A DNA stretch of 33,532 bases. Source: an uncultured Pirellulaceae bacterium (GTDB lineage: Bacteria > Planctomycetota > Planctomycetia > Pirellulales > Pirellulaceae). Shown here one piece after another: positions 18,049 through 29,755 of this stretch. The notes below the pieces were generated by a model, which worked only from the letters and a program-made list of their open reading frames with translations, was not told the origin of the DNA and did no database searches. Both the position numbers and the translations under genes were made by a program. The stretch is from positions 1-33,532 of the forward strand of contig CALLUY010000010.1 of assembly GCA_938010615.1 (NCBI GenBank). Direction: 5' to 3'. The first letter of the stretch is position 1. Each line of letters begins with the position of its first letter.

Positions 18049-18312
18049 TGCCGTCCCTGTATTTGATTTGATCGGTTCCCGGACCTGTTTGGCCGATGCT
18101 CCATTTTGTGCTAATCGGACAAAAAAAATAACCACAAAGCAGGAACTAATCTAAATGTGACAGCACGTTGAGAGTCCACCAAAACTGTCGAACGTGTGAC
18201 AACATACACCCGCAAAGCTCATAGACACTCGTGTACTGTTTGATAAACGTGAGCGGCAAGGCGCTCACTCATTGTGCAAAACCAGAGTGGTGTTCCATTT
18301 GTCAAAATGAAC

Positions 18313-25871: not shown

Positions 25872-26116
25872 AGTAGCACGACTCTCCGAGTCGTTCGTGG
25901 CTGTGTGAAATGAATCGGAGAGGTTGTGAATTAATTAGGCATGTGCTTTACGAAGGTATTCGCGCCGTTCGTAGTACCGGTTTTAACCGGAATTCCTCCA
26001 CTTCGCTCAAGCTAGATTCCGCCTAAAGGCGGTACTACAAACACAGGGTGCAAAAAATTCACAGCCTCTCCGAGTCGTTCGTGGCAGTGCGAAACGACTC
26101 GGAGAGTCGTGCTACT
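25872..26116. repeat. Composite 245-bp element with perfect 24-bp terminal inverted repeats
   Basis: AGTAGCACGACTCTCCGAGT begins the left end (25872-25895), and its exact complement ends the right end (26093-26116). Each end also has a partial partner arm next to it (about 25908-25925 and 26066-26079). In the middle is another inverted repeat, GTAGTACCGGTTTTAACCGG (from 25971) against 26015-26038, where each arm contains a mini-hairpin (CCGG/CCGG and CCGCC/GGCGG). No protein is encoded. The right end contains the dnaX stop codon. Confidence 0.85.
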
Positions 26117-27980
26117 TTCGTTTTGCGTGCTTGGGATCGAAATAGTCCGAAACGGCGCCGTCAAAGATCGAAATCGCCTGTTTGACAAATTCATTTTCAT
26201 TGAGCTCTCGAATCTGCTGCGCGCGGGAAAGCTGCGGAGCGATGGTCTCTGCGGTCGGTGCGTTTTTCGACAAAACAAAGTCAATTCGAATGCGACGACC
26301 AGCAACTTCGCGCAACGCGGCCTCAATTTTTGCTTTGCGGTCGGTGCGAGAACACATCGTGCGGTGCATTGCTTCGAACAGCGCGACTTCGATGTGATCG
26401 GGAGACTTCGTGGTCAACGTATCAAAGTTCGATGCCATATCAGCTGTCATGTCTCCCATCGTTTGCATGGCCGATTGATACATTGTCTTAATGTCTCCAC
26501 TGGCAGGCTCCGCGATGGTGCTGCTGCTTGCTGAAGTTGATTCCGGTTCGAGAGTCGCCACGGCAGTAGCGGCAACGGTTGCGCTCGCGACAACAGCAGC
26601 GGAGGCAGCAACTTCATTGGTCCCAGCAGCAGTCGCGCTTTTTTGAACTTCAGCAACTTCAGCTTTAGGTGCGACTTCTGCGACAGGCTTCGTTGGGACG
26701 ACTTCTGGTACGATTGGTGGGTCCGGTTTCGAAGGTTGCTCAATTACGTTTTTTTTTTCTGAGCTTTTGCCATGCACGATCGCTTTTCCTGCTGGCATCT
26801 TGGTTAAGGTATTCACCAAATCGGAAATCGATTCCAGCTGCTGCAAATTGCATATCCGTACAGCAGCGACTTCCAAAAGCACCCGAGCGTGAAGGCTGGA
26901 TTGCATTCGAACGACCGCCGTATCGAGAATCTGCACGATTGTCAGCATGGTTTGCAGGCCCAGCTGGCCGCCAACGTCCCTTAAGCTTTGAGCATCGCTA
27001 GCCGAACAACTTTGCAGGACTTCATCGCCGCAGCCGATGTGCATGGCCATCATGTCACGGAAGTAGCCTAACAGTTGTCCCGTCAATTGCCCCGCATCCA
27101 CGCCGCCGGCAATGCTTTGATGGATCAAGTTCATTGTCGTCGTTGCGTCGTGAGCCGTCATGGCACTGGCAACTTCGGCGATGCGGCTCATGTCCGTCGT
27201 GCCGAGCAACTGATGGACTTCTTCGACGGTTATGTCGTTGCCGCAAAACGAAAACAACTGTTCCAGCAGCGATTGGCTGTCTCGCATTGAACCGTTCGCG
27301 CGGCGCGCTAACAGTTGTAGCGCTTCGTCACTGGCGGCTACATTTTCTGTTTCAGCAATCTCTCGCAATCGATTGGTGATCTCGTCCGGTTGGACAGGAG
27401 AGAAGTCATACCGTTGGCAGCGCGACAGGACCGTAATTGGGATCTTTTGAGGATCCGTTGTGCAGAAGATAAACTTTACATGCCCCGGAGGTTCCTCCAG
27501 CGTTTTGAGCAACGCGTTGAACGCTTGCTGAGTCAACATGTGGACTTCGTCGATAATGTAAATCTTGTAACGGCCGCGGCCGGGTCGAATCGCCGCATTG
27601 GATCGGAGTTGCCGAATCTCATCGATTCCGCGGTTACTGGCACCGTCAATTTCGAGGACGTCCACGTCTTCGCCGACGGAAACGGAATTGCAAATATCGC
27701 ATTCGTTACAGGGCGTCGGTGTGGGGCCTTTGGAACAGTTGAGACATTTCGCGAAAATTCGAGCTGACGAGGTCTTGCCGACTCCACGAGCACCGGTGAA
27801 AAGATACGCATGACCGACGCGATTCGATTCAATCGCGTTGGACAAGGCTCGGGCAACGTGTCCTTGTCCGACCAAGTCTCCGAAAGACTGTGGACGGTAG
27901 CGTAGTGCGACGACCTGATACTGCTCGCTCGCGTTTGGGTCAGTCGAATTGGTTGGTTCGGGACTCATGGATTCCTGCAA
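26112..27980 (-). CDS. dnaX: DNA polymerase III subunit gamma/tau
   Basis: The 622-residue protein is the clamp-loader ATPase. It has RYRPQSFGDLVGQ, Walker A GARGVGKT (63-70), zinc cysteines C82, C91, C94 and C97, Walker B IYIIDEVHML (D144, E145), sensor 1 FCTTDPQKI and the LSRCQR arginine finger region (about 185-190). Domain III ends near residue 400. A run of ten A's lies at codons 408-411, after which comes an Ala/Val/Pro-rich linker (about 415-500), and a tau-specific C-terminal domain (about 510-622) with HIEVALFEAMHRTMCSRTD and RRIRIDFVLSKNAP. M5 (27968) is an alternative start. The stop codon is within a repeat. No recR or ybaB gene follows, unlike in many bacteria. Confidence 0.96.
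   Translation of the reverse strand: MQESMSPEPTNSTDPNASEQYQVVALRYRPQSFGDLVGQGHVARALSNAIESNRVGHAYLFTGARGVGKTSSARIFAKCLNCSKGPTPTPCNECDICNSVSVGEDVDVLEIDGASNRGIDEIRQLRSNAAIRPGRGRYKIYIIDEVHMLTQQAFNALLKTLEEPPGHVKFIFCTTDPQKIPITVLSRCQRYDFSPVQPDEITNRLREIAETENVAASDEALQLLARRANGSMRDSQSLLEQLFSFCGNDITVEEVHQLLGTTDMSRIAEVASAMTAHDATTTMNLIHQSIAGGVDAGQLTGQLLGYFRDMMAMHIGCGDEVLQSCSASDAQSLRDVGGQLGLQTMLTIVQILDTAVVRMQSSLHARVLLEVAAVRICNLQQLESISDLVNTLTKMPAGKAIVHGKSSEKKNVIEQPSKPDPPIVPEVVPTKPVAEVAPKAEVAEVQKSATAAGTNEVAASAAVVASATVAATAVATLEPESTSASSSTIAEPASGDIKTMYQSAMQTMGDMTADMASNFDTLTTKSPDHIEVALFEAMHRTMCSRTDRKAKIEAALREVAGRRIRIDFVLSKNAPTAETIAPQLSRAQQIRELNENEFVKQAISIFDGAVSDYFDPKHAKRK
26749..26758 (-). promoter_or_regulatory. 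dnaX: A10 slippage site in dnaX
   Basis: On the coding strand the codons GAA AAA AAA AAC (E408-N411) contain ten A's in a row. One extra A reads KKKRN and then TGA; one missing A reads KKT and then TAA. Either slip would end the protein at about 411-413 residues, just after domain III. That is the length class of the gamma form made by programmed slippage in other bacteria. Confidence 0.7.
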
Positions 27981-28144: not shown

Positions 28145-29755
28145 ATGGGACTTTTAGATATATTCGAAGCGATTCTCCAGCCAGAAAAAAAATCCAGCCG
28201 CAGCGAGAGTTCCCGGAGAGGCGTTCGCCTGCCTGACCTTGACCCGACTCCGACCGTCGGCGATGGCGGCATCGGAGATGTCATGCACTCGGTGGTTCAA
28301 GTCGTCGCATTGCGAGAGGGCTTCCGTGGCGGAATGTCATCGGCGTGGACTGGCTCCGGCACGATCGTGCATCCCCAAGGAGTCATCCTTACGAATTGTC
28401 ATGTCGCGAATCCACGAGCGATGGGAATGTCATCTCCTCCCGCAGATCGGCTGGGGATCGCCATCACGGAAAAATCTGATCGAGCCCCTGCCCTTTCTTA
28501 TTTTGGCGAATGCGTTTGCTACGACGTGGACTTGGACCTTGCCGTGATTCGCATTGTTTGCGATGTCAAAGGACGAAAGATCCGCAAGCTTAATCTTCCG
28601 TCGGTTGCCCTTGGTGACAGCGATGATTTGAACTTGGGTGACCGCATTTCGATTTTTGGCTATCCCGGAATCGGCGGAGAAAACGTAACGTTCACTTCGG
28701 GTAGCGTTTCAGGATTCTCGAAAGAAAAAGGCGTCCGTTCACCTCGAGCTTGGGTTAAGACAGACGCGACGATTGCCGGAGGAAATTCTGGTGGCACGGC
28801 GGTTTGCCCGAAAGGTTTCCTCGTCGGAGTTCCGACACAAGCAGCCGCGGGAACCGGAATCACGCCCGTCGATGCCCGACCGGTATTGGACACTAATAAG
28901 GACGGACGTATCGATCAGCGTGATACACCAATGGCGATTGGCGGATTCATTAACGGTTTGCGTCCGATTAACTTGGCGATTCCGTTGCTCGAAAAAGCCG
29001 GCATGCGTGTCAGCAAGGATCGCGGTGATTCGCACGATATGCCCGAGCACAAACCGGCTCCGATTCGCGGATTCGATTTCGATTTGATTCGCGAGAAGCC
29101 TGAGTTTTCGAATCTTCTGTTTTCAACACGAGTGACAGACGATGGTCGACCGATCTATCCAACGTCCAGCATTCCGGGCGGCGTCGATGAAGTTTACGCT
29201 TCGTTTGACTTCGACAATATGCGAAATGGAACTCCTTGGAGTGTCGTTTGGATGAATGAAGGTAAAGTCATCATCGAACAAAAAGATAATTGGGATGATG
29301 GCGAAGAAGGTCGCAAGACGGTCAAGATCGCAAACCAGCGCGGTGTTCCTAATGGCCAGTATCGTTTGGTCGTCGGTATCGGCGGCGAAATCAAGCTCGA
29401 AGGCGACATGCATGTTGGACCGATGGTTGACGAATCGGACAGTGAGATTTCTGGACGAATTGTCGATGGCAGTTCCGGACGTGGCATCGATGGTGCTCTC
29501 GTGATTGTGTTGAAGCCTAAAGTTGAAATGCGACGGTTTCTCTCTGCTCGCAGAGAATCCGATGTTCAAAGCTCGACCGAGTCGGAGCGGGATGGTTCTT
29601 TCAAATTGCCTGATCAGCTCCCCAAGGGGAATGCATACAGTATGGTGATTGCAGCGCGAGGATATCGTCCTCTGACGGTCGAGCATGCGTTGCGAGTTAG
29701 TGCTGGAGCTCCAGAAAACGCGGATGTTGGTGAAATTGAACTCGAAAGAGATTGA
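28145..29755 (+). CDS. Trypsin-like serine protease with a Ca-loop insert and C-terminal beta domain
   Basis: The 536-residue protein starts MGLLDIFEAILQPEKKS and shows no signal peptide. A chymotrypsin-fold protease (about 40-285) has H86 (ILTNCHVANP), D131 (DVDLDLAVIRI) and S215 (AGGNSGGTAV), as in HtrA/DegP. There is no PDZ domain. Near its end is a calcium-loop motif, DTNKDGRIDQRDTP (249-262), of EF-hand or dockerin type. Residues about 310-430 are a strand-rich region (DEVYASFDFDNMRNGTPWSV), and residues about 440-536 a carboxypeptidase-regulatory-like beta domain (SEISGRIVDGSSGRGIDGAL; DGSFKLPDQLPKG). It is probably an intracellular or membrane-associated protease. It diverges from dnaX. 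Confidence 0.85.
   Translation: MGLLDIFEAILQPEKKSSRSESSRRGVRLPDLDPTPTVGDGGIGDVMHSVVQVVALREGFRGGMSSAWTGSGTIVHPQGVILTNCHVANPRAMGMSSPPADRLGIAITEKSDRAPALSYFGECVCYDVDLDLAVIRIVCDVKGRKIRKLNLPSVALGDSDDLNLGDRISIFGYPGIGGENVTFTSGSVSGFSKEKGVRSPRAWVKTDATIAGGNSGGTAVCPKGFLVGVPTQAAAGTGITPVDARPVLDTNKDGRIDQRDTPMAIGGFINGLRPINLAIPLLEKAGMRVSKDRGDSHDMPEHKPAPIRGFDFDLIREKPEFSNLLFSTRVTDDGRPIYPTSSIPGGVDEVYASFDFDNMRNGTPWSVVWMNEGKVIIEQKDNWDDGEEGRKTVKIANQRGVPNGQYRLVVGIGGEIKLEGDMHVGPMVDESDSEISGRIVDGSSGRGIDGALVIVLKPKVEMRRFLSARRESDVQSSTESERDGSFKLPDQLPKGNAYSMVIAARGYRPLTVEHALRVSAGAPENADVGEIELERD

Follow-up and report, generated by a model that had tools for sequence, protein, structure and literature searches.

A retained run of nine or ten adenines in planctomycete dnaX as a candidate site of transcriptional slippage

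The dnaX gene of an uncultured Pirellulaceae bacterium carries a run of ten adenines that probably acts as a programmed transcriptional slippage site, giving a gamma-like form of DnaX beside full-length tau; from the comparative sequence evidence, we put the probability of this reading at about 0.8. The gene lies in the 33,532-nucleotide stretch of DNA analysed here (the window), which belongs to a draft genome that is 84% complete and comprises 4.70 Mb in 221 contigs. In the proposed mechanism, RNA polymerase would slip on the A10 run and produce messages with differing numbers of A's. In-frame messages would be translated into tau, 618 amino acids in length, and out-of-frame messages would stop within five codons, yielding a gamma-like protein of about 44 kDa in which the clamp-loader domains are intact and the linker and C-terminal domain are missing. 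Both DnaX proteins would then work in the clamp loader. We infer the slippage in the cell, its frequency, its transcriptional nature, and the working of both proteins in the clamp loader. The initial annotation had proposed two DnaX forms arising by slippage, more likely transcriptional, and the comparative evidence supports that proposal as an inference.

The dnaX gene occupies positions 26112 to 27968 of the minus strand (618 codons plus stop) and was assigned a tau-like full-length product by profile and E. coli matches. It scores over cut-off for NCBIfam TIGR02397 and NF004046, the Pfam clamp-loader ATPase, lid and domain III are all over cut-off in its product, and the match to E. coli tau/gamma chains has an E value of 3.2e-84. 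The sequence confirms that the A10 run reported at 26749 to 26758 lies on the minus (coding) strand of dnaX, where it reads TCA GAA AAA AAA AAC GTA ATT GAG in the context G-A10-C; its status as a proposed slip site draws on this sequence and on the class-wide occurrence of A9-A11. The run had also been placed at codon 408, a number that stands if codons are counted from the TTG at 27980 and fails if they are counted from the ATG at 27968, where the run begins at codon 404 and covers codons 404 to 407. We consider the TTG less likely as a start than the ATG 12 bases downstream. Translation bears out the earlier claim that both alternative frames stop within five codons (KKKRN-TGA and KKT-TAA). 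With one extra A, or a -1 shift, the TGA at 26740 to 26742 (minus strand) is reached, and the predicted translation from the ATG ends in EKKKRN (409 amino acids, 44.5 kDa). With one A fewer, or a +1 shift, the TAA at 26744 to 26746 (minus strand) is reached and the predicted product ends in EKKT (407 amino acids, 44.2 kDa). The predicted unshifted product from the same ATG has 618 amino acids and 66.7 kDa. Searching the genome that carries the window for A9 gave 19 matches in 18 tracts, among which the dnaX run is the sole A10; some of the other A9 tracts fall in open frames.

A short product would retain the clamp-loader domains and lose the C-terminal domain, because the run encodes residues 404-407. 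Codons 1 to 390 (26799 to 27968, minus strand) hold the ATPase, lid and domain III by Pfam and a structure model, and would be whole in the short form; the Pfam matches stop at residue 387. In the model (21 sequences, mean pLDDT 75.8), helices extend up to residue 390, with the final helix of the clamp-loader part at 378-390. They are followed at codons 391 to 492 (26493 to 26798, minus strand) by a linker that contains the A run and is predicted from its pLDDT to be disordered (below 50 at 394-474 and 476-490). The model therefore puts the run where the folded part ends and the disordered linker starts, in agreement with its earlier description as lying just past the clamp-loader domains. This linker is tolerant of sequence change. 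Codons 493 to 602 (26163 to 26492, minus strand) are modelled as a folded C-terminal domain that would be missing from the short form, and residues 485-618 modelled alone reach a pLDDT of 85.5. None of the 783 Foldseek matches to the C-terminal domain falls under an E value of 0.001. The top match is a chain of a SirA-DnaA complex. Chains E from E. coli polymerase III complexes, which we take to be tau, rank second and fifth, and the third place goes to 2aya, the C-terminal domain of E. coli tau, as a weak match (E 3.6e-3, TM 0.35, large rmsd). Judging from its position in the gene and the weak 2aya match, the folded region 493-602 is probably the tau C-terminal domain.

In Pfam searches, the eight ORFs neighbouring dnaX contained nothing bearing on the A run. 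Palindromic repeats adjoin the 3' end of the gene (25872-26116 of the window), consisting of two 41-base direct copies, 90% alike, plus a perfect inverted pair of 24 bases with arms at 25872-25895 and 26093-26116. An A8 tract lies at 28185-28192, at about codon 14 of a trypsin-like protease ORF (28145-29755, plus strand), and a second A8 is found elsewhere in the window, at 18121-18128.

The run is retained across most of the class. We anchored dnaX loci by tblastn at residue 372 and took the longest A-run over the following 120 codons. Among sampled genomes of the same class, A9-A11 occurs in the dnaX linker at 203 of 238 loci, and the length is 9 or 10 in 201 of these 203. Only three class loci have A7 or A8, none has A12 or longer, and 32 have A5 or less, three of them cut at contig ends; L027, L119 and L233, which stop at contig ends, are counted as lacking the run. 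T-runs in the same linker stretches never exceed 6. Across class loci, the run starts 21-84 codons (median 43) past residue 372. In the genus, 27 loci (the window's own included) comprise 20 with A9, 6 with A10 and one (L027) that lacks a run and stops at its contig end. The family outside the genus (n=107) has 33 A9, 60 A10, 2 A11 and 12 without; the order outside the family (n=44) has 24 A9, 13 A10, 1 A7 and 6 without; and the class outside the order (n=60) has 30 A9, 15 A10, 1 A8, 1 A7 and 13 without. Counted by taxon, the run is present in at least one member of 113 of the 131 sampled genera and of 23 of the 26 sampled families. Loci of one genus are not independent, and per-genus counts reduce this dependence without removing it.

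These counts rest on the following samples. The genus sample had 28 genomes and gave 27 dnaX loci after G024, with only a weak paralogue match, was left out. For the family, 115 of 119 genomes matched; from the 111 outside the genus, the fragmentary G056, G081, G086, G091 and G101 were left out, and adding G322 brought the set to 107. For the order, 47 of 48 genomes matched, 44 of them outside the family; G382 was left out and G379 entered twice, giving 44 loci. The two dnaX-like matches of G379 (L273 and L293) lie on different contigs and reflect either two copies or contamination. All 60 genomes sampled from the class outside the order yielded a locus.

The initial annotation had named retention of the run in related species as a check and a sequencing error in the homopolymer as a way for the claim to fail. 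Retention extends well beyond the genus, as the 203 of 238 class loci attest. Sequencing error is a poor explanation, because the relative of greatest identity, G001, assembled in one contig and 88% identical over residues 4-415, has A9 at the dnaX linker and further single-contig genomes also have A9 or A10. More broadly, the run could reflect no recoding at all but chance, codon usage or misassembly, an idea to which a draft genome of 221 contigs, the error-prone nature of homopolymers and a linker that tolerates change lend some credit. We consider it very improbable. When codon order in the linkers was shuffled (200 rounds), on average 1.25 of 233 loci had A9, with a maximum of 5, against 201 observed. 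Elsewhere in the same genes A9 is absent: none of the 238 loci has it in the conserved part upstream of the linker (257 kb, longest run 7) or in the remainder of the frame downstream (85 kb, longest run 8, with five loci lacking sequence there). Outside the run, AAA accounts for 1230 of 2682 lysine codons, and for 38 of 189 at the 16 loci with GC3 of at least 0.85, so simple codon usage does not explain the unbroken A tract. Several different codons supply the first A (E 52, Q 45, S 22, A 20, V 17, L 17, K 17, and others), so it is the bases that are kept rather than the residues. On the strength of the shuffles, the lack of A9 elsewhere in the genes and AAA usage outside the run, we discounted chance, codon usage and assembly error.

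Stops in the two shifted frames are enriched as well. The zero frame is open in 199 of the 203 class loci with the run. Within 10 codons, the -1 frame reaches a stop in 188 of these 199 loci, the +1 frame in 174, and both frames in 165, leaving 34 not closed in both. In 400 rounds of shuffling the codons downstream, with the first codon kept in place, the numbers were 75.5 +/- 6.3 for the -1 frame, 54.6 +/- 5.8 for the +1 frame and 20.2 +/- 4.0 (maximum 32) for both. At other linker positions (n = 15,996), stops occur in 26% of cases for -1, 28% for +1 and 8% for both. With one locus per genus, the numbers are 107, 96 and 90, respectively, of 113. The excess of +1 stops is expected from slippage in either direction and unexpected from -1 frameshifting.

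This last point bears on programmed -1 ribosomal frameshifting of the E. coli type, in which a ribosome slipping at A_AAA_AAA or A_AAA_AAC would terminate at the TGA of the -1 frame. Both heptamers are in frame within the run of the window, so some ribosomal shifting is possible; -1 stops are frequent (188/199), and according to the available text of PMC5009743 this is the route used by E. coli dnaX. Such frameshifting would, however, be served by 7 A's rather than 9-10 and would have no need of the +1 stops seen in 174 of 199 loci. The run in the window lacks A_AAA_AAG, a heptamer at which, according to the same text, E. coli ribosomes are much more prone to shift than at A_AAA_AAC or A_AAA_AAA. 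The stimulators of the E. coli site show no excess either. None of the four Shine-Dalgarno-like 4-mers sought occurs just upstream of the run in the window, and across the class they are found upstream at 18 of 203 loci against a background of 9.4%, without enrichment and with no strong motif. Over the 60 bases downstream, folding is slightly weaker than background (mean energy -15.35 vs -16.54, p 0.012) by a measure of local, pseudoknot-free pairing. The same measures found both elements in E. coli dnaX (L414), with GGAG and a hairpin region at -22.8. The earlier observations of no Shine-Dalgarno-like element before the run and no strong stem after it therefore extend to the 203 loci. The length of the run, the stops in both other frames and the lack of stimulators together favour transcriptional slippage, and we regard E. 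coli-type frameshifting as unlikely.

Run length also bears on ribosome sliding, in which ribosomes would move forward or backward on the A tract and end in either shifted frame. Sliding is known in vitro for E. coli ribosomes, where as few as three AAA lysines can yield truncated product (PMC4363877, available text), and it would likewise require stops in both frames. In the same experiments, sliding was robust on A11, yet little product formed on A9 or A10, the very lengths of 201 of the 203 runs, and the run of the window holds only two whole AAA codons. Sliding is accordingly quite improbable here. For E. coli RNA polymerase, slippage is reported as undetectable below eight A's (PMC6260861, available text). 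The observed 9-10 A's exceed this limit and stay under the one for ribosome sliding, both limits coming from E. coli; the sliding limit may explain the upper bound on run length. In a large share of genomes, selection is also reported to act against A/T runs of nine (PMC1088944, in part). The near absence of runs of 6-8 A's beside the 201 of 9-10, together with the enrichment of stops in both other frames, adds grounds for transcription that the initial annotation did not have.

Four loci with the run depart from the single open frame. In L025, L116, L200 and L242, the gamma and tau parts do not share a frame at the A run. The gamma frame stops within 5 codons of the run, and the tau part is encoded by 197-280 codons open in a different register; it is conserved, at about 50-80% identity to the tau part of a relative, which counts in favour of slippage at the run. 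These may be genes of a two-ORF type or products of assembly error, the latter being possible because all four genomes are multi-contig. They are also what could be expected if the length of the run changed in DNA rather than RNA, by replication slippage or phase variation. That the zero frame is open in the other 199 loci speaks against a change in DNA, as does the alternation between A9 and A10, in which bases bordering the run change and the frame is kept; we hold this explanation to be very unlikely. Under transcriptional slippage, a DNA change that alters the frame at the run could be tolerated, because messages in all three frames would be made. This leads to a broader proposal, to which we give even odds: most of the class would keep a dnaX slip site at 9-10 A's, enough for RNA polymerase slippage and too short for ribosome sliding, with both other frames closed, and the gene would tolerate a DNA frame change at the run, so that most species are tau-first and a few gamma-first.

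An A9 run is absent from 32 class loci with a full linker, some of them in single-contig genomes (e.g. G102, G286 and G300), and the slip route is therefore not indispensable. The genus coded g19 is one that lacks the site. Mean GC3 is 0.75 without the run versus 0.68 with it. On a FastTree tree, at least 21 state changes are needed within the class, a count that does not distinguish gain from loss. A substitute site was sought in 14 loci lacking the run (1 from the genus, 12 from the family and 1 from the order, three of them contig ends); homopolymers there include C7 in L226, C6 in L124 and A6 in L246. One genus, g197, contains both states. L270 has the A9 run, as TTA AAA AAA AAG, and the other five loci lack it: L327, L331 and L338 keep the three lysines with AAG among the codons, L350 keeps two lysines, and L324 lacks any adjacent pair of lysines at this place. 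From these sequences, it looks as if the site was gained or lost through synonymous change.

Outside the class, 129 genomes of the phylum matched, 82 were taken and 80 could be anchored. Only 8 of these 80 planctomycete loci have A9-A11, all 8 reaching stops within 13 codons in both other frames, and 65 have 6 or fewer A's. In nine outside-class loci (L394, L396, L397, L402, L404, L405, L407, L411 and L412), the frame ends 17-34 codons past residue 372 and no A run of 6 or more is found; these are perhaps DnaX proteins without the tau part. A separate collection of 80 named loci, 77 of them anchored, includes 13 with A9 or A10, ten from Planctomycetota and one each from entries titled Verrucomicrobia (L053), Ignavibacteria (L054) and Bacteroidetes (L059). 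These last three have A9 in the dnaX linker and stops in both other frames, and the slip site may thus recur in other phyla. Named isolates bearing A9 or A10 include Aporhodopirellula aestuarii (L032) and Gemmata sp. IIL30 (L039).

The closest known system is dnaX of Thermus thermophilus, in which transcriptional slippage occurs on A9 (Larsen 2000, as cited in PMC1088944 and PMC5009743). As far as these accounts describe it, the shared features are the gene, nine or ten A's in the sense strand, nearby stops in both other frames with a single long tau ORF, and a truncated gamma-like product, which here is predicted. The differences are that slippage in Thermus is experimental and here predicted from sequence, and that the run here begins at codon 404 of 618, about two-thirds along dnaX. 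GeneTack predicted two-ORF dnaX genes with poly-A at the junction, for which its authors infer slippage (PMC3711429, in part); L025, L116, L200 and L242 resemble this type, whereas in the window gene and 199 of the 203 class loci with the run a single open frame encodes tau. Frameshifting in E. coli dnaX relies on A_AAA_AAG, on a Shine-Dalgarno-like element upstream of it and on a stem-loop (PMC3711429 and PMC5009743, available text). The E. coli case shares with ours the gene, a similar place after domain III and the kind of truncated product, but there the signal is A_AAA_AAG with GGAG and a hairpin, and here it would be 9-10 A's without enrichment of Shine-Dalgarno-like motifs or structure. 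In Caulobacter crescentus, gamma is made by proteolysis of tau (PMC5009743, available text); a short DnaX form likewise exists beside tau, but no recoding site is needed.

In the open-access literature, we found no description of dnaX recoding in planctomycetes; subscription papers were mostly outside the scope of this search. Two planctomycete genomes were scanned in PMC3711429, and a planctomycete may be among its nine A10 species, judging from the available part of that paper. The mechanism is thus already known from Thermus, and, as far as we searched, its retention through most sampled genera of a class has not been described.

Slippage that gives a truncated product is described as hard to spot by comparison, as it leaves no new coding sequence to align (PMC1088944, in part). 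The signature used here, a kept run length with stops in both other frames above shuffled controls, recognises such slippage and lends itself to scans of other genes. With the site present in 113 of 131 sampled genera beside clear absences, comparison can test whether bacteria in general need a short DnaX form or whether it is peculiar to a few models.
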